From: Woeseiaceae bacterium
GTDB lineage: Bacteria > Pseudomonadota > Gammaproteobacteria > Steroidobacterales > Woeseiaceae
Length of the DNA: 64,000 nucleotides
Assembly: GCA_030066625.1 (NCBI GenBank)
Contig: JASJBG010000004.1
Location: 1-64,000 of the forward strand
Direction: 5' to 3'
Every line of letters begins with the position of its first letter. The first letter of the stretch is position 1. Positions 5,146 through 52,101 of the stretch are shown here, piece after piece. Under the pieces are notes generated by a model. That model made no database searches and was not told the DNA's origin. It saw only the letters and a program-made list of their open reading frames with translations. Both the position numbers and the translations under genes were made by a program.

Positions 5146-5601
5146 ATGATTCAGGCGCTCACCCGATGTGCTGCGGTCGCGCTTCTGGCCATTGTCGCAG
5201 GCTGCGGCGGTGAACAAAGCGGCCCCGAGGAACAGGTGCGTGCCTGGGTCGATGCGATGCACGAAGCCGCCGAGAACAAGGACCGGCGGACGATCCTTGA
5301 CGGGATCGCAGACGGCTACGCGGATGCCCGCGGCAACAGCAAGGACGACATCGGCGACATGCTGCGTGTTTACTTCCTGCGCCAGGGCACGATCGTGCTG
5401 ATCGTGAACATCGACGAAATCGAGATCGTCGGCGGCTCGGCAGCGAATGTCGCGCTGACCGTCGGGATGGCCGGCACCGGCGGTGGGACGCTGGGACTGT
5501 CGGCCGATGCCTACCGCTTCGAGCTCGAGCTCGAGGCTGACGGCGATGACTGGCAGCTCCTGTCGGCTGCCTGGGGAGAGATAGGCCAGCCGGTTCGATG
5601 A
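5146..5601 (+). CDS. Putative lipoprotein, NTF2-like fold possible
   Basis: Signal peptide with lipobox (LLAIVAGC), EEQVRAWVDAMHEAAENKD helix as in NTF2-like domains. Confidence 0.7.
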   Translation: MIQALTRCAAVALLAIVAGCGGEQSGPEEQVRAWVDAMHEAAENKDRRTILDGIADGYADARGNSKDDIGDMLRVYFLRQGTIVLIVNIDEIEIVGGSAANVALTVGMAGTGGGTLGLSADAYRFELELEADGDDWQLLSAAWGEIGQPVR

Positions 5602-5645
5602 GCTGGCTGAAAACCGGTCCGACTGGGCCGGCCGGGAGGGGGACT

Positions 5646-6131
5646 ATGCGAACGCAAACCGTCGTGAACGTCACCGGCATGATGCTCGTCATGGGCTGGC
5701 TGTCGGGCTGCGCGACCGTCACGGAATCCGTCGTTTCCGCGCCCGACGTCTCCCTGAGGAACGTTCACGTCGCGCGTCTCGACCTGTCCGCGCAGACCTT
5801 CGTTCTGTCTTTCGACGTAACCAACCCGAACCCGTTTCCGCTGCCGGTCAACATGATCGACTATGGTGTGAAGCTCGATGGCCGGCGCTTCGCCAGCGGT
5901 GAAACCGACTGCAAGATCATGGTGCCTGCCGGGAGCGACAGCGAGATCGCGATCAGCGTCGACCTGAATCTTCTGAAGACCGATCCCGAGCTGCTGTTCA
6001 TCGTTCGCGACGCGGCGCGCGGCGACATTCCGTACACGCTCGAAGGCCGCATGGGCGTCGACCTGCCGGCAACTCGACCGATGCGCTTCGAACATGAAGG
6101 CCTGATTCGCCTGCAGGCGCTGGCGGACTGA
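5646..6131 (+). CDS. LEA type 2 family lipoprotein
   Basis: Lipobox (GWLSGC), SFDVTNPNPFPLPVNMIDYGVKLDGRRFASG typical LEA14/WHy domain. Confidence 0.85.
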   Translation: MRTQTVVNVTGMMLVMGWLSGCATVTESVVSAPDVSLRNVHVARLDLSAQTFVLSFDVTNPNPFPLPVNMIDYGVKLDGRRFASGETDCKIMVPAGSDSEIAISVDLNLLKTDPELLFIVRDAARGDIPYTLEGRMGVDLPATRPMRFEHEGLIRLQALAD

Positions 6132-6147
6132 CGCGCCGAAACATCTT

Positions 6148-6163
6148 GGTTACGCGCGTAACC
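6148..6163. promoter_or_regulatory. Perfect 16-bp palindrome upstream of gltB (operator or terminator stem)
   Basis: GGTTACGCGCGTAACC, no following T-run. Confidence 0.4.
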
Positions 6164-6389
6164 TAAGAATTCAGCCGCAAGACGCGCGTGTCTTTGACGT
6201 CTAAGTAGCTGTTTTAGCTCTCTTTTCCCGAGTGACCGGAGGACGAATACTCGTCGCCTTGGTTGCTCCCCTATACTCGATGCTTCGAGTCGGCCGTGGC
6301 GACACCGGCGACTCCCACCCCTTACCGGGCATTCACGACGATACCTTTTCACGAGCGGGCCGCGTTTGGCGCGAGCCCCGAAGGCGACA

Positions 6390-12253
<5,864 letters not shown>

Positions 12254-12414
12254 CAGAAGCGTCGATTTTCGCGATCCGGCCGACGGCTCTTTGCAACTGA
12301 GGCGCAGGTCACAGAAGCCCGCGCTGAAATCCTGAAAACTCTCATTGTCGCAGGTCCGCGACACCCGCTTAAGCGGCCGGGTAGCGCGGATTATGTAAAC
12401 ACATGGAGTGTCAC

Positions 12415-42114: not shown

Positions 42115-43080
42115 TTAGCGACTGAGGCAGTGTCGGTCGCCCGCGCGGGCGATGTTGAAGCCGCGCTTCCGGACCTCTGCCGACTCTGCAGACGCAGGGA
42201 AGCGTATCGGGTTGGTGTGGTTGTAGTGAATGAAATGTACGCGACGACGAACGTCGTCGGGTAGTTCGCCCAGACGATCCATCGTCTGCTTCACCCGCGG
42301 GTGCGGTATCAACGACATGTCGCGTCCCGGCAGTTCGTTGTTATCGAAGAACGTCGCGTCGAGAAACGCGTAGTCGACGCTTTGCACGATGTCCTCGATC
42401 CGGACGTCGTAGTCACGCACCCATTCGCCCCAGCTGTCGATGTCGGGCAGGAAGAAGATACGCGCCGACGGGATTTCGATCAGGAAGCCGACCGTCTCCG
42501 AGTACTCGTCCCGGTGTGGCACGCGGTGTGGAGTCACCTCGATACCCTCGCTGATGCGCCGGGACTCCCGGTCCGCGAGCTCGACGAGCGCAATGTTCTC
42601 GAAGCTCACGAGCTGGCTCCATGGCCCGTTGTTCTCCAGGTACTCACGGAAGCGAGGCATCGCATAGACCGGGACGTTCTTTGCGCCCGCCGCTTCGCGG
42701 CCGAAGAACATCAGCCCGGTGTAGTGTCCGATGTGTGCATGAGTCAGGAGCACACCGTCGACTCCGAGACCCGCACTTTCGACGGGTGCGAGCGAATCGA
42801 GCAGCTGCAGCTGGTCCGTAATGTGCGGCGTCGCCTCGAACAGGAAGCGCTTGCCGCCTACGTGATCCACGAGTGCAATCGACGTCGCGGTTAGCCCGAG
42901 CGACGAATCGCTCCAAGCGGGGTCTTCGCGGTTGCCGATCTGCGGTGCGCCCGCGTCCTGCCCAGTGCCGAGCACGACGAGCTCGATCCGGCAGGCCTCC
43001 TCCCCGCTTGCCGAGCCCGCGGCAATCAGCGCTAACAGCATCAAGTGGTGGACAAGCTTCTCGAGGCTACGCTTCGGCAT
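42115..43080 (-). CDS. MBL-fold metallo-hydrolase (PqqB-like)
   Basis: Signal peptide; VVLGTGQDAGAPQIG, GVLLTHAHIGHYTGL, FLPDIDSW; overlaps end of the histidine kinase gene. Confidence 0.85.
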   Translation of the reverse strand: MPKRSLEKLVHHLMLLALIAAGSASGEEACRIELVVLGTGQDAGAPQIGNREDPAWSDSSLGLTATSIALVDHVGGKRFLFEATPHITDQLQLLDSLAPVESAGLGVDGVLLTHAHIGHYTGLMFFGREAAGAKNVPVYAMPRFREYLENNGPWSQLVSFENIALVELADRESRRISEGIEVTPHRVPHRDEYSETVGFLIEIPSARIFFLPDIDSWGEWVRDYDVRIEDIVQSVDYAFLDATFFDNNELPGRDMSLIPHPRVKQTMDRLGELPDDVRRRVHFIHYNHTNPIRFPASAESAEVRKRGFNIARAGDRHCLSR

Positions 43081-45121
43081 TCGTGCTGTCCGATTCGACG
43101 GCGGGAAGCTGTATCGTGAAGCGAACGCCGCCGTCGGCGTTGTCCGCGTCGATACGGCCGCCGTGGCCGTCGGCGATCAAGCGCGCGATGTACAGGCCAA
43201 GTCCCAGGTGCTTGTCATCCTTTGCTGGCCGCACGGAGATCATAGAATCGAACAGCTGACCTCGCATGCGTTCCGGAAGCGGCGGTCCGGGGTTCTGCAC
43301 CGACAGCGCGATGCTGTCGGCGTCGCGACCAACACCGATATCGATTTCGTCGCCGTCGTCGCTGAAGCTCACGGCGTTGTCGACGAGCTTGTCGAGCATC
43401 TGGATGATGAGCTCCGGTGAACCACGCACGCTCAACGGCTCACGGGTCCCCGTAAGTTGGAAGCCGCGCTGCGGATACACGTCGCGATATGCCGTTACGG
43501 TCGATTCGACGACCGCGCCGAGGTCGAACACTTCCGGTTCGACGTTGCGCATGAGCTCCTCGACGCGGCTGGCCTCGCTCATGGCCGCGAGTATGCGCCG
43601 CAGCCGGTCTGCGCCATCGCGTGCTCTTGCCGTGTAGCCGGCCGCTGTCTCGTCGAGGGTCTCGTGCTCGAGGTTCTCGAGCGAGGAGGTCACGATGGCG
43701 AGCGGCGTGCGTAATTCGTGCGACAGCTTGGACGCCAGTGTCCGCAGGTACTCGTTGTACTCACCGAGCTGGATAAGAACGTCGGCAAAGCTGCGCGACA
43801 GGTCGCCAATCTCGTCCGCGGCCAGCGCGCTCGGCAGTGCCGTCGGCAGCCGATCGGATTCCAGAGCATCCTCGGCCGCGATACTCAGGCGACGAATCCG
43901 TCGTGACAGCCAGCTCGCATATCCAATCAGCCCGCCCGCGACGACGAGCATGGCTATGAGCGTAACGTTCATGAGCCGAACCAGCCCCTCGCTGCGGAGG
44001 CTCAGGATGGCGTCGGTGCCCTGCTGCAGGACGATCACGCCCAGCTGGTTGCCATCGATACGAACCGGCTCGGCGACAGCCACGATTGCCCGGCCGCTGG
44101 CCTCGCCGCGGAACCATGCCGACGACGGACGGCCCGATAAGCCCTCGCTGACGTAAAGCTGCTGCTCGCGGCCCGACGGGTCCGGTTCCGCGAACAGGGG
44201 CTCCGTGCCCGGTTCCACGGCTGCGTCGTAGGCGAGGCGCAGCCAGCGGGAGACGCGGGTTCCGGGCTCCGCTGCGGATTCGAGCCTGCCCGCCGTCGCG
44301 ATGCGCCAGCCCGACGGATCGGTGACGAGCAGCCGCATGCCCGGCTGCACGAGCGCCGCCGCGCGTTGTTCGAGCTCGGGGATCGTCGTGGCAAACGGTC
44401 CCGGTGAGCGAGCCGCGAAACTCGCGCTGCGGACGCCGGGCGAGTTCGGCACGCTGACGTTGTCGACAACGACGCCCAGGTGCGTGCCGAGCAGGTTGAG
44501 CGGGATTCGCATCTCGACCTGGTAACCGTTGGGTACGTCCTGCCAGAAGCCGCGTATCGTCGGCTCGCCCGCCGCGCCGCTCGCACTGCGCCGAAATACG
44601 ACCACGGCGCCCGGGGCCTCCGCGGCCGTCGTAAACGCCTCGTCGAGATAGGGTGGGCTGCTGCTGACGAGCGTCACCCGGTCTGCGAAGCGCTGTCGCG
44701 ACGTCGGCAGCAGTGACTGGCTGTCGGCATAGACCACTTCGTTATCGGCGACCTCGACGTAGAAGAACGCGTACTGCGATGTGATCCCGATCGCGAAGCG
44801 AATGGGTCCGTCGGTTCCGCGCATCTGCGTCAGCGACTCGCGCGACAGGGTCCAGTCGTCGAAGTAGCCGTCGATCGAGGGCTCCGATTCGAGCCGATGG
44901 CCGAACAGCTGGTCGCCGAGGACGTGATCGACGCCGACCCCCGGCGGGAAGTCCTCGGGATACTGCGCCATCGTGTCGGCGATGGCACGCGCGGTTCCGG
45001 CCAGCATCTGCTGCTGGCTCGAGCGCAGCGCGGTCTCGGTCTCGCGAATGAACTCGCAGCCGGCCCAGGGCAGCATGAGTGTCAGCAGGCTGACGAGGAG
45101 TAGCTGCTGGCGTAGATTCAT
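43067..45121 (-). CDS. pdsS: Sensor histidine kinase of the proteobacterial dedicated sortase system (PdsS-like)
   Basis: N-term LPWAGCEFIRETETALRSSQQ; HAMP; LSHELRTPLAIV H-box; GLGLYIARLIADGHGG; adjacent to RR and class GN sortase. Confidence 0.85.
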   Translation of the reverse strand: MNLRQQLLLVSLLTLMLPWAGCEFIRETETALRSSQQQMLAGTARAIADTMAQYPEDFPPGVGVDHVLGDQLFGHRLESEPSIDGYFDDWTLSRESLTQMRGTDGPIRFAIGITSQYAFFYVEVADNEVVYADSQSLLPTSRQRFADRVTLVSSSPPYLDEAFTTAAEAPGAVVVFRRSASGAAGEPTIRGFWQDVPNGYQVEMRIPLNLLGTHLGVVVDNVSVPNSPGVRSASFAARSPGPFATTIPELEQRAAALVQPGMRLLVTDPSGWRIATAGRLESAAEPGTRVSRWLRLAYDAAVEPGTEPLFAEPDPSGREQQLYVSEGLSGRPSSAWFRGEASGRAIVAVAEPVRIDGNQLGVIVLQQGTDAILSLRSEGLVRLMNVTLIAMLVVAGGLIGYASWLSRRIRRLSIAAEDALESDRLPTALPSALAADEIGDLSRSFADVLIQLGEYNEYLRTLASKLSHELRTPLAIVTSSLENLEHETLDETAAGYTARARDGADRLRRILAAMSEASRVEELMRNVEPEVFDLGAVVESTVTAYRDVYPQRGFQLTGTREPLSVRGSPELIIQMLDKLVDNAVSFSDDGDEIDIGVGRDADSIALSVQNPGPPLPERMRGQLFDSMISVRPAKDDKHLGLGLYIARLIADGHGGRIDADNADGGVRFTIQLPAVESDSTNAEA

Positions 45122-45136
45122 GACGGCGGGCGCTCG

Positions 45137-45829
45137 CTATTCAGACAGCCAGCGGTATCCCATTCCGTAGACGGTCTCGATGGCGTCGAACTCCGAATCG
45201 ATGGCCAGGAACTTGCGACGGATGCGCTTGATGTGCGACGTGATCGTGTTGTCGTCCAGCACTGCCTGCGCCGCGTCCATGAGCTGTTGACGGTTCTTCA
45301 CGTGACCGGGATAGCGCGCCATCGCGTGCACGAGCCAGAACTCGGTCAGCGTGAGTCCGACCGGCTGGCTCTGCCAGGCGATGGTCATGCGATCGGTATC
45401 GATCTCGAGGTCGCCGCGCGTCAGCCGGCCTTCGCCGCTCTGCGGCTCGCGAAGTGCGTCGAGTCGCCTGAACAGCGCAGCGATTCTCGCCATCAGGTGC
45501 GGCAGGCTGATGTCCTTGGTCAGGTAATCGTCGGCACCGAGCCGGAGGCCCGATACTGCGTCGAACTCGCTGTCGCGTGCGGTCAGGAAGATGATGGGCA
45601 GGTCGGCGGAGCGCGAACGCAGTTCGCGGCAAAGCTCGAAGCCGCCCTCGACGTCGTCTTTCAGGTTGATGTCGATGACGACCAGGTCCGGCAGCCGGCT
45701 CGCGAACGCATCGAGCGCCGGCTCGCGCGCTTCGTAGGCATCAACGACGTAACCCTCGCGTCGAAACGCGTCCGTATAGTTGTCCCTGATCGCGGCCTCG
45801 TCCTCGACGATGGCAATCCGTTTGGCCAC
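45137..45829 (-). CDS. pdsR: Response regulator of the proteobacterial dedicated sortase system (PdsR-like)
   Basis: VAKRIAIVEDEAAIRDNYTDAFRREGY receiver, DLVVIDINLKDDVEGG phospho-acceptor, C-terminal winged helix; GTG start at 45829. Confidence 0.85.
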   Translation of the reverse strand: MAKRIAIVEDEAAIRDNYTDAFRREGYVVDAYEAREPALDAFASRLPDLVVIDINLKDDVEGGFELCRELRSRSADLPIIFLTARDSEFDAVSGLRLGADDYLTKDISLPHLMARIAALFRRLDALREPQSGEGRLTRGDLEIDTDRMTIAWQSQPVGLTLTEFWLVHAMARYPGHVKNRQQLMDAAQAVLDDNTITSHIKRIRRKFLAIDSEFDAIETVYGMGYRWLSE

Positions 45830-45949
45830 GGCATGCTCCCAAAAGCGAAGTCCACAATTTGCCACATTCCGCCGCTCGATTGCCATGAATGAGGGCGCGT
45901 CTCGGCGTTTTCCGCTGTTCTCATAGGCCCCAAGAGAGGAACAAGAGCA

Positions 45950-46507
45950 ATGAGAATCGTGGCCCTGATATTATGTCTTGGATTCTGGCAGATCGGTCAC
46001 CAGACACCGATGCCTGCAAAAGCCTGGGTCGCCCAGGACATCATGCAGAAGAGCTGGGAGCGGCTGCCCGGTGGCGCCGAGCTGTCGTCGCCCTGGCCCT
46101 GGAATCACACCTGGCCCGTGGCGAGGCTGTCCGCGAAGTCTGGCGAAGTCGACCTGATCGTACTCGCCGGTAGTTCGTCGCGAACGCTGGCGTTCGGTCC
46201 CGGGCACATGACGACGAGCTCGCTGCCCGGTGACCCCGGCAATGCCGTGATCGCTGGTCATCCCGATACGCATTTCAATTTCCTGAAGGACCTGGCGATT
46301 GGCGAGTCGCTAACGGTCGAGTCACTCGACGGTGACCTGCACGTGTATACGGTCGTCGACCTCGAGGTCGTCGATTCTCGACGTGCCAGCCTGCAGCTGG
46401 ACACCGAAGATGCCGTCCTGAGCCTGGTAACGGGCTATCCGTTTGGCGAGCGCGAGGACAATGCGCGCGGGATGCGCTACGTGGTCACCGCTAAGAAGTT
46501 GCTCTGA
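45950..46507 (+). CDS. Class GN sortase homologue lacking the catalytic cysteine
   Basis: N-term TM; PWPWNHTWPVARL, LAFGPGHM, NAVIAGHPDTHFNFLKDLAIGE (His104), LSLVTGYPFGERE (Gly162 where Cys is expected), GMRYVVTAKKL (Arg). Confidence 0.88.
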   Translation: MRIVALILCLGFWQIGHQTPMPAKAWVAQDIMQKSWERLPGGAELSSPWPWNHTWPVARLSAKSGEVDLIVLAGSSSRTLAFGPGHMTTSSLPGDPGNAVIAGHPDTHFNFLKDLAIGESLTVESLDGDLHVYTVVDLEVVDSRRASLQLDTEDAVLSLVTGYPFGEREDNARGMRYVVTAKKLL

Positions 46508-47027
46508 GACGCGCGACGCGCAGCAGCGCGACGACACTCAGTGCATCGGTGATCTCGCCGCTTTCCGCCATCGCGACGGCCTCTGCCAGCGGCAGTCGGC
46601 GAATGTCGAGTACTTCGGTCTCGTCGAAGTCGGGTTCGCCGGCTGCGAGTTCTTCGGCGACGAACACGATGCCGGTTTCGTCGGTGATCGAGTTGCTCAG
46701 ATGCAGCCTCATGACCTCGGTCCATTGTTTTGCTGACAGGCCGGTTTCCTCAAGCAGCTCGCGCTGCGCGGCCGCGAGCAGGTCCTCGTTCAACGGCGCA
46801 CCGCCCATTGGCAGTTCCCAGGAATAGGCGTCCAGCGTGTAGCGATGCTGGCCGACGAGCCAGGTGTGCTCGTCGTCGTCGATCGGCACGATGGCAACGG
46901 CACGATTCAGGAACTGGATGTGGCCGTAATCGTTCTCGCCGCCGCGAGGATTAATGACGCGGTCCTCGAGCACCCGCATCCACGGGTTCTCCCAGATCAC
47001 GCGCGAGTTCAGGCGTCTCCAGCTCAC
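46491..47027 (-). CDS. NUDIX hydrolase (NudE-like)
   Basis: Nudix box GGAPLNEDLLAAAQRELLEETGL. Confidence 0.92.
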   Translation of the reverse strand: MSWRRLNSRVIWENPWMRVLEDRVINPRGGENDYGHIQFLNRAVAIVPIDDDEHTWLVGQHRYTLDAYSWELPMGGAPLNEDLLAAAQRELLEETGLSAKQWTEVMRLHLSNSITDETGIVFVAEELAAGEPDFDETEVLDIRRLPLAEAVAMAESGEITDALSVVALLRVARLRATS

Positions 47028-49402: not shown

Positions 49403-50785
49403 ATGCAGAACAACAGAGCCAGGCTGACAGAAGGCCCGGTCGGTCAACATTTGATCGACATGACCGTGCCCGTGCTGTTCGGGATTACGACGATGATGGC
49501 TCAGAGCCTTATCGATACGTGGTTCATTGGTCGCGTCGGCGACCGTGAACTCGCGGCCTACGGTTTCGGTTTTCCCATTCTGATGATGGTGACGAGCGTG
49601 GCGATCGGCCTCGGCGCCGGCACTTCGTCGGTCGTCGCACGGGCGATCGGCGCCGAAGACCATCGGCGCGCGCGCCGCCTGTGCACGGACAGCCTGTACC
49701 TGTCTTTCGCGATCACGGGCATTATCGCAATCATAGGCGTCTGGACCATCAATCCCTTGTTCCGGCTGCTGGGCGCACCCGAAAACATGCTGCCGATGAT
49801 CCGCAGCTTCATGACGATTCTTTACGCCGGTGTGCCGTTCATCGTCGTCGGCATGGTCGGTATGGCGAGCATGCGTGCGACCGGAGACACGCGGTTGCCC
49901 GGCAAGCTCATGGTGTACGCCGCCGTGCTCAACGTGATCCTCGACCCGATCCTTATCTTCGGCATCGGTCCGATTCCGGCAATGGGTCTCGACGGTGCCG
50001 CGATGGCCGCGCTGCTCGCCCGCGGTACGATCTTCATCGGCACGGTCTACCTGCTGTACCACCGCCTCGGCATGATTACGCCGAACTTGCCGAAACGCGA
50101 CGAGATGATGAAGTCCTGCGGCGACATCCTGCACGTTGGCATCCCGGCGGCAGGAACCAACGTCATCGTGCCGCTCGGCGCGACGATCGTGACGGCAATG
50201 ATTGCGCGGTTCGGCCCCGACGCCGTCGCCGGCTTCGGCGTCGCCAGCCGCATCGAGACGTTGATGCTCGTCATCTACTACGCGATGTCGTCGATCATCG
50301 GGCCCTTCGTCGGCCAGAATCTGGCGGCCGGCCGCGAACGCCGCATCCTGCGAGCACTGTGGCTGTGTACCGTGTTCTGCCTCGGCAGCGGTCTCGTAAT
50401 TGCAGCGCTGCTGGCGCTGCTCTCGGGGTTCCTGCCCGGCCTCTTCAGCGACAGTGAGAGCGTCAAGAGCGTTACACGGCTGTACCTGTGGATCATCCCG
50501 ATCAGCTACGGCACCTACGGCATGGTCATGGTCATGAACGCGGCCTTCAACGGTCTCGGCAAACCCATGCCCGGCGTCTGGATCAGCACGGCGCGCATAC
50601 TCGTTCTTTACGTGCCGCTCGCGATTATCGGCATGTGGCTGTTCGGCCTGGTCGGTATCTTCATGGCCTACGCGCTTGCCAACGTCGTCTCCGGCATCGG
50701 TGCCTATGCGTGGGCGCGCGCGACCGCGCACAAGCTGTGCCACGCCAACCCGGAAGCGACGCCTCAGACCGAAGGGAGTACCTGA
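49403..50785 (+). CDS. MATE family efflux transporter
   Basis: Full-length multi-TM MATE: ALIDTWFIGRVGDRELAAYGFGFPI-type pattern; 460 aa. Confidence 0.93.
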   Translation: MQNNRARLTEGPVGQHLIDMTVPVLFGITTMMAQSLIDTWFIGRVGDRELAAYGFGFPILMMVTSVAIGLGAGTSSVVARAIGAEDHRRARRLCTDSLYLSFAITGIIAIIGVWTINPLFRLLGAPENMLPMIRSFMTILYAGVPFIVVGMVGMASMRATGDTRLPGKLMVYAAVLNVILDPILIFGIGPIPAMGLDGAAMAALLARGTIFIGTVYLLYHRLGMITPNLPKRDEMMKSCGDILHVGIPAAGTNVIVPLGATIVTAMIARFGPDAVAGFGVASRIETLMLVIYYAMSSIIGPFVGQNLAAGRERRILRALWLCTVFCLGSGLVIAALLALLSGFLPGLFSDSESVKSVTRLYLWIIPISYGTYGMVMVMNAAFNGLGKPMPGVWISTARILVLYVPLAIIGMWLFGLVGIFMAYALANVVSGIGAYAWARATAHKLCHANPEATPQTEGST

Positions 50786-52101
50786 CGCCGATAGCCCAGG
50801 TGCATGCCGAGGCCGCGGCTTGCCAGGAACGCGAGAAACGCCAGCCAGAGGCCGTCGTTCGCGAGCGGTTGTAACAGGTACCAGGCCGGCAAGAAGACCG
50901 CGACCGTCGAGAAGATCATGATGTTGCGCATTTCCCGGGCACGCGTGGCGCCGACGAAAACGCCGTCGTAGACGAACGACCAGACCGAGATCAGCGGCGA
51001 CACGACGAGCCACGGCAGGTAGCGGAGCGTGGCCTGGCGGACCTCTTCGAGGTCAGTCAGCGCGTTGATCAATAGCGGTCCGCCTGCCGCGTACAGAATG
51101 ACGAAGCCGATTGCGAGATACAGTGACCACTTGAGGGACAGGCGCACGGCGGTGATGAGTGACTCGCGGTTCTTCTGGCCGACGGCCTTGCCGACCAGCG
51201 CCTCGGCCGCGTGGGCGATGCCGTCGAGCCCGAAGGCCATCAGGTTCTGCAGGTTCATCAGGATCGCATTCGCGGCAAGAATTGTCTCGCCGAAGCGTGC
51301 GCCCTGCGCAGTGACGAAGGCGAGCGTAAACATGAGCGCCATCGTTCGAATGAAGAGCGCTGCGTTGACGCTGAAGAACGCGCCGTACTCGCCCCATCGA
51401 AGCAGCCTCGCGATCGGCCAGTGGCCTGCGCGGTTCCGCAGTTCACGAACGGCGAAAACGAGGCCGACCGCGAGCCCTGAGTACTCCGCGATGACCGACG
51501 CGAGTGCCACGCCGTCGACGGTCATGCCCAGACCGATTACGAACACGAGGTCGAGCACCATGTTCGTCACGTTGACGGTCAGGAACACGAGCATCGGCAC
51601 CCGGGCATTCGACAGGCCGATGAACCAGCCGACGAGCACCATGTTCGCGAGCGCTCCCGGCGCGCTCCAGATTCGAATGTCGAAGTAGGTGAACGCCAGT
51701 TTTTCGACGTCGGCGCCGGCGGCGAACAGCGGCAGCGTCAATTCGATGACCGGCGTTTGCAGCAGAAGCATCAGGCCGGCGAGCGACAGCGCGACGATCA
51801 GCGCCTGGCCGAGCGACACGCGCAGCCCATCGTTGTCGCCGGCGCCATAAAACTGCGCGGCGATGCCCGTCGTGCCCATCCGCAGGAAGTTGACGCCCCA
51901 GTACAGGAAGCTGAATACGACGCTCGCGACCGCGACGCCGCCGAGGTAGGCGGGGCTGTCGAGGTGTCCGAGCACGAACGTATCGACCATGCCGAGCAAC
52001 GGCACGGATATGTTCGACAGGATCAGCGGCGCCGCGATGCGCCAGACATCTCGATCCCTCGGCAGCCGGGAAACGTTGTCCACCGCCATCGCGGCGGCCA
52101 C
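50764..52101 (-). CDS. MATE family efflux transporter (DinF-like)
   Basis: IAAPLILSNISVPLLGMVDTFVLGHLDSPAYLGGVAVASVVFSFLYWGVNFLRMGTTGIAAQ. Confidence 0.93.
   Translation of the reverse strand: MAAAMAVDNVSRLPRDRDVWRIAAPLILSNISVPLLGMVDTFVLGHLDSPAYLGGVAVASVVFSFLYWGVNFLRMGTTGIAAQFYGAGDNDGLRVSLGQALIVALSLAGLMLLLQTPVIELTLPLFAAGADVEKLAFTYFDIRIWSAPGALANMVLVGWFIGLSNARVPMLVFLTVNVTNMVLDLVFVIGLGMTVDGVALASVIAEYSGLAVGLVFAVRELRNRAGHWPIARLLRWGEYGAFFSVNAALFIRTMALMFTLAFVTAQGARFGETILAANAILMNLQNLMAFGLDGIAHAAEALVGKAVGQKNRESLITAVRLSLKWSLYLAIGFVILYAAGGPLLINALTDLEEVRQATLRYLPWLVVSPLISVWSFVYDGVFVGATRAREMRNIMIFSTVAVFLPAWYLLQPLANDGLWLAFLAFLASRGLGMHLGYRRQVLPSV

Follow-up and report, generated by a model that had tools for sequence, protein, structure and literature searches.

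The gene at positions 45950-46507 on the forward strand of the window (the whole stretch of 64,000 nucleotides that was analyzed) encodes a homologue of class GN sortases whose catalytic Cys is replaced by Gly, and is probably a retired enzyme that is kept for a non-chemical job. Within the genus, this Cys is lost together with the neighboring TIGR03788 substrate gene, which has happened several times, and the protein that stays behind is under strong purifying selection and not in decay. On balance, the most likely explanation is that an ancestral target-sortase locus lost its substrate gene and that the sortase is now maintained as a non-catalytic, binding pseudosortase.

Sequence and Predicted Structure of the Cys-less Sortase

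The host genome (G000) is a MAG from the Woeseiaceae (Gammaproteobacteria) with a size of 3.88 Mb, distributed over 236 contigs, and a completeness of 89%. The sortase reading frame is open over all 185 codons and has a start codon as well as a likely ribosome-binding site (AGAGAGG, 45933-45939, forward strand), which aligns with the ribosome-binding region of the TIGR03788 target gene at canonical loci, so that the gene is not a pseudogene with a broken frame. The translated protein exhibits an N-terminal TM segment and the motifs PWPWNHTWPVARL, LAFGPGHM, VIAGHPDTHF, LVTGYPF, and RYVVTA, and its profile score of 164.3 bits exceeds the TIGR03784 cut-off of 158.25. Translation and profile search hence agree with a sequence-only reading of this DNA, which had described an intact class GN layout of 185 aa.

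The same reading had pointed to the catalytic residues, and the DNA matches its description at each position. The motif that reads LVTCYPF in active class GN sortases is LVTGYPF in the window protein, with the codon GGC for Gly162 at 46433-46435, one base away from a Cys codon. The remaining catalytic residues are present, namely His104 (CAT, 46259-46261) and Arg176 in RYVVTA (46475-46477), the latter retained in all five Cys-less proteins described below. The residue following the His is Pro105 (CCC, 46262-46264) instead of Arg, resulting in the motif GHPDTHF (His104-Pro105, 46259-46264). Alignment with class GN sortases revealed no alternative Cys at the active-site position. In sortase chemistry, no thioacyl intermediate should form once the nucleophile is lost. 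As the Cys nucleophile is gone, the window protein would have lost catalysis; the earlier suggestion that it is catalytically dead or doing something else is consistent with the missing substitute Cys and with the Gly, Ala, or Ser found at related loci. The fold itself is predicted to be kept: the AF2 model (mean pLDDT 83.8, pTM 0.79) contains a confident sortase beta-barrel, and the top PDB matches identified by Foldseek are all sortases with a probability of 1.00.

Loss of the Substrate Gene and of the Cys Within the Genus

The genomic context was compared in 73 genomes of the genus. In nearly all of them, pdsS and pdsR face a target-sortase gene pair, with a NUDIX gene located beyond. All loci in which the target is found beside a full-length sortase read LVTC or LITC together with GHR or GHK followed by DTH, and no loss of the Cys was detected at any target-keeping locus among the 73 genomes. 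At the window locus, pdsR and pdsS lie divergently upstream of the sortase gene and the NUDIX hydrolase gene (46491-47027, reverse strand) converges with it, thereby keeping the synteny; no TIGR03788 target with a C-terminal sorting signal was found there, and one is present at an unlinked position of the genome (contig C79). Altogether, six loci do not possess a target between pdsR and the sortase (the window, G021, G005, G022, G062, and G060), and the active site is damaged in all six. The Cys position is occupied by Gly in the window and G021, by Ala in G005 and G022, and by Ser in G062, which answers the question raised by the first reading about the state of this residue in related genomes. 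The catalytic His is additionally lost in G005 and G022 (His to Arg) and in G062 (His to Asn). The sixth locus, in G060 (L044, about 7540-7993), carries a frameshifted sortase pseudogene in which the start codon of the target runs into sortase sequence; the frameshift is followed by a deletion in which the His motif was lost, while LVTCYPF is still present.

The Cys-less state was thus observed in five independently assembled Woeseiaceae genomes, window included. A sequencing or assembly error at the Cys codon might be suspected, given that a single base separates it from Cys and that the source is a MAG. However, G021, which was assembled separately, likewise has GGC at this codon, three more genomes carry Ala or Ser, and ten further conserved positions of the window protein are changed. 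The four other Cys-less loci and the ten other changes rule out such an error for practical purposes.

Two further loci (L143 and L151) had been flagged as broken sortases because the regular expression applied was overly strict; GHRDTH and the Cys are present in both. A search for Gly/Ala variants of the motif in 398 genomes of the order, with a pattern that was not exhaustive (it missed G021 and was blind to Ser), yielded matches within sortases in G000, G005, and G022 only. A match on contig C33 of G005 was left out, and matches in G229 and G274 belong to unrelated ORFs.

The number of losses was estimated from a quick tree of concatenated PdsS and PdsR sequences from 61 loci, in which part of the inner branching around G062 is unsettled. 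The window and G021 are sisters, as are G005 and G022, both pairs with full support, and G062 and G060 stand apart. On at least four occasions in this tree, the presence of the target changes, and three to four independent losses in which the sortase was kept appear to be the safe statement. A test with independent pairs found all three in the expected direction, three to four pairs being too few for significance. At sites that are otherwise invariant, G005 and G022 have 13 derived changes in common, His to Arg and Cys to Ala among them; the loss therefore predates their split and their divergence is truly post-loss. The window and G021 have no more than two such changes in common (Y20P and C162G), and thus the loss in this pair may have been parallel rather than common.

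Selection After the Loss

A branch codon model covering 22 taxa and 184 codons was used to compare background branches with transition branches (two stems and the G062 branch) and post-loss branches (four terminal branches). For the sortase, omega was 0.073 on background, 0.27 on transition, and 0.109 on post-loss branches. On the latter, omega = 1 was rejected (2dlnL = 198.4), which argues against the neutral evolution expected of a pseudogene, and equality with the background was not rejected (2dlnL 3.4). The sequence-only reading had proposed to set the dN/dS of the sortase against that of pdsRS: on the same branches, omega of PdsR was 0.041 (background), 0.096 (transition), and 0.038 (post-loss). 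Pairwise omega of the sortase amounted to 0.14 between the window and G021 and 0.07 between G005 and G022. As synonymous sites are near saturation, with a fourfold-site identity of 0.39-0.50 versus an amino-acid identity of 0.62-0.66, these values are approximate, though neutrality is still excluded.

These results bear on the possibility that the gene is a slowly decaying relic, released from constraint together with the target and open only for want of time. Decay does occur at such loci, as illustrated by the frameshifted G060 gene at the same targetless position, by five genomes that contain pdsR and no sortase, and by the raised omega of the transition branches. Against it stands the strong purifying selection after the loss, evident despite near-saturated synonymous sites. 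For G005 and G022, whose divergence certainly postdates the loss and proceeded at the low pairwise omega given above, a relic is already hard to uphold, and we regard this explanation as improbable overall.

The pattern of amino-acid changes was examined at 69 positions on which at least 97% of 61 canonical sortases of the genus agree. The window protein deviates at 11 of them and each Cys-less protein at 11-23, whereas canonical proteins deviate at no more than 4 (median 0). Nine sites are altered in all three lineages: Tyr20, Ile21, Ala52, Thr54, Gly77, Arg78, Cys162, Gly172, and Gly173. In the AF2 model, they are located at the post-TM junction, in the loop preceding the first strand, where the helix comprising residues 77-82 begins, where the Cys strand ends, and immediately ahead of the last strand, and can be read as the substrate and active-site face. 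Unchanged in all five Cys-less proteins are 35 positions, including His108, Tyr163-Pro164-Phe165, and Arg176.

The PdsRS System and the Putative Operator

The pdsR response regulator gene (45137-45829, reverse strand) scores 389 bits with TIGR03787 (cut-off 335.7). Its listed reading frame extends to 45886; the probable start is the GTG at 45829, as the profile match begins at residue 22 and the sequence shows this GTG together with GGGAG. The histidine kinase gene pdsS (43067-45121, reverse strand) is matched over its full length by TIGR03785 but, at 535.7 bits, remains below the cut-off of 612.2; its H-box (SHELRTP) and GLGL motif are intact. The sortase homologue is hence associated with both components, of which only PdsR surpasses its family cut-off. 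The 3' end of pdsS is overlapped by an ORF for a PqqB-like protein of the metallo-beta-lactamase fold (42115-43080; 94.7 bits, cut-off 245). Elsewhere in the window, two adjacent, convergent, and slightly overlapping ORFs (49403-50785 and 50764-52101) encode MATE-like transporters, as judged from translation alone.

A conserved 29-bp box, ATTTGCCACATTCCGCCGCTCGATTGCCA, is situated at 45857-45885 on the forward strand between pdsR and the sortase gene and is a putative PdsR operator, with direct GCC repeats every 10-11 bp (ATTTGCCACATTNCGNCGNTNNATTGCCA). GCC-type repeats at this spacing are common for sites of the OmpR/PhoB family. Scanning of 14 genomes revealed a single site per genome in 12 of them and no further PdsR targets carrying the operator pattern; the box is degenerate in G005 and G022. 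It is retained where both sortase and target are gone and may therefore mainly serve pdsR itself by autoregulation. At the window locus and in G021, the ATG of the sortase occupies the same alignment column as the target ATG of canonical loci; the deletion consequently placed the sortase in the position of the target.

PdsR was found above its cut-off in 68 of the 73 genomes. Five genomes (G004, G011, G050, G045, and G053; loci L201-L204 and L206, in this order) contain pdsR and pdsS and neither a class GN sortase nor a target, and genomes of only 1.4-1.5 Mb are among those that retain the two-component system in this way. The system must therefore have another job, and by outliving target and sortase it shows that its dedication to the sortase is not strict.

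A more specific form of the pseudosortase explanation would make the protein an accessory sensor or regulator that binds the periplasmic domain of PdsS and tunes PdsRS signaling. The pseudosortase gene is always adjacent and divergent to pdsR, next to the conserved operator-like box, and the window, G021, G005, and G022 retain the catalytic residues of both PdsS and PdsR. However, several genomes of the genus retain pdsRS without any sortase, the box in these genomes may serve pdsR autoregulation alone, and in G062 the Ser-type pseudosortase persists beside a pdsS that is frameshifted in the ATPase domain (L039, 5396-7362), possibly due to an assembly error. We consider this more specific form rather unlikely.

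Intact Sortases and Targets Elsewhere in the Genomes

As proposed by the first reading, the host genome was searched for a second intact class GN sortase, and one was identified on contig C79. It carries GHRDTHF and LVTCYPF and is located directly behind a TIGR03788 target (750 bits); no pdsRS genes were found near this pair. Just upstream lies a gene for a small protein with a PEP-CTERM-like tail (L003, 1774-2316) and just downstream one for a very long RHS-type protein (5549-12301). A comparable unlinked and intact target-sortase pair is present in G005. In the target tree, the C79 target clusters, at moderate support, with targets from the part of the genus to which the window belongs, and the spare target of G005 takes a deep position in the family. 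The spare pair plausibly arose by relocation of a copy, which then assumed the enzymatic function, or it may stem from transfer from a relative.

The presence of such pairs in G000 and G005 could suggest that the Cys-less protein acts as a regulator, chaperone, or decoy for an intact class GN sortase and its target in the same genome. Genome searches of G021, G022, and G062, all with Cys-less proteins, detected neither an intact class GN sortase nor a target with a sorting signal. These three genomes lead to the rejection of this function as a general role, and we judge it to be very improbable in any form.

TIGR03788-like VIT/vWA proteins with scores of 470-493 bits occur in G000 (contig C133), G062, and G022 (L005, L061, and L062). 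They were not taken as substitute substrates, as they begin with a probable lipobox and the C-terminal sorting signal (FPATAT, TM segment, and basic residues) is absent from them. From their sequences, they are probably a lipid-anchored cousin of the sortase target.

A Model for the Origin of the Probable Pseudosortase

The pseudosortase is proposed to descend from the sortase of an ordinary locus comprising pdsS-pdsR, a TIGR03788 target, and a class GN sortase. A deletion would have taken out the substrate gene and, in the window and G021, moved the sortase start to that of the target, beside the PdsR-type operator. Relieved of transpeptidation, the protein would have lost its nucleophile (Cys to Gly in the window) and diverged at the active-site face, while purifying selection would have preserved membrane anchor and sortase barrel. 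In this model, it would be expressed from the old start site of the target, next to the operator, and function as a membrane-anchored, non-catalytic periplasmic binding protein. Candidate ligands would be a peptide or cell-envelope component in the remaining cleft or a protein partner. A binding role is favored because selection maintains the protein, including in some genomes that have no active class GN sortase. The role would be dispensable on longer time scales, since the G060 gene decayed and other members lost target and sortase.

A bolder generalization holds that class GN sortases repeatedly turned, once their dedicated substrate was lost, into periplasmic receptors without enzymatic function that pass a ligand signal on to PdsRS or to a different partner in the envelope. 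This idea is doubtful at present; if true, it would describe the first conserved pseudosortase and imply that a role in binding or sensing, distinct from transpeptidation and separable from it, was already present in the ancestral sortase.

Comparison With Known Sortases

To our knowledge, sortases are regarded as obligate Cys transpeptidases. The open-access collection that was searched contained no paper that pairs sortases with the term "pseudosortase," and the sole match for sortase and "pseudoenzyme" was on another subject. Cys-less sortases that are kept by selection in several lineages, and always without the substrate gene, constitute a natural experiment that separates the catalytic from any other role of a sortase in a little-studied Gram-negative system. 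They also call for caution in annotation, as the window protein passes the equivalog cut-off of TIGR03784 and would be labeled as an active class GN sortase.

Class GN (TIGR03784) comprises dedicated, strictly Gram-negative sortases that are encoded beside their target (PMC3237569). The window protein resembles them in length, the N-terminal TM segment, the motifs PWPW...WP, LAFGPGH, DTHF, and RYVVTA, and the adjoining pdsRS genes. It differs in the exchange of Cys for Gly and of the Arg following the His for Pro and in the missing TIGR03788 substrate gene at its locus. With class D sortases (NF033746; PDB 4d70 and 2ln7) it shares the fold and a distant similarity in sequence, whereas its score of 65.6 bits remains below the family cut-off of 165 and class D enzymes possess the catalytic Cys. 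In having lost its nucleophile while its fold is under selection, the window protein resembles catalytically dead pseudoenzymes in general.
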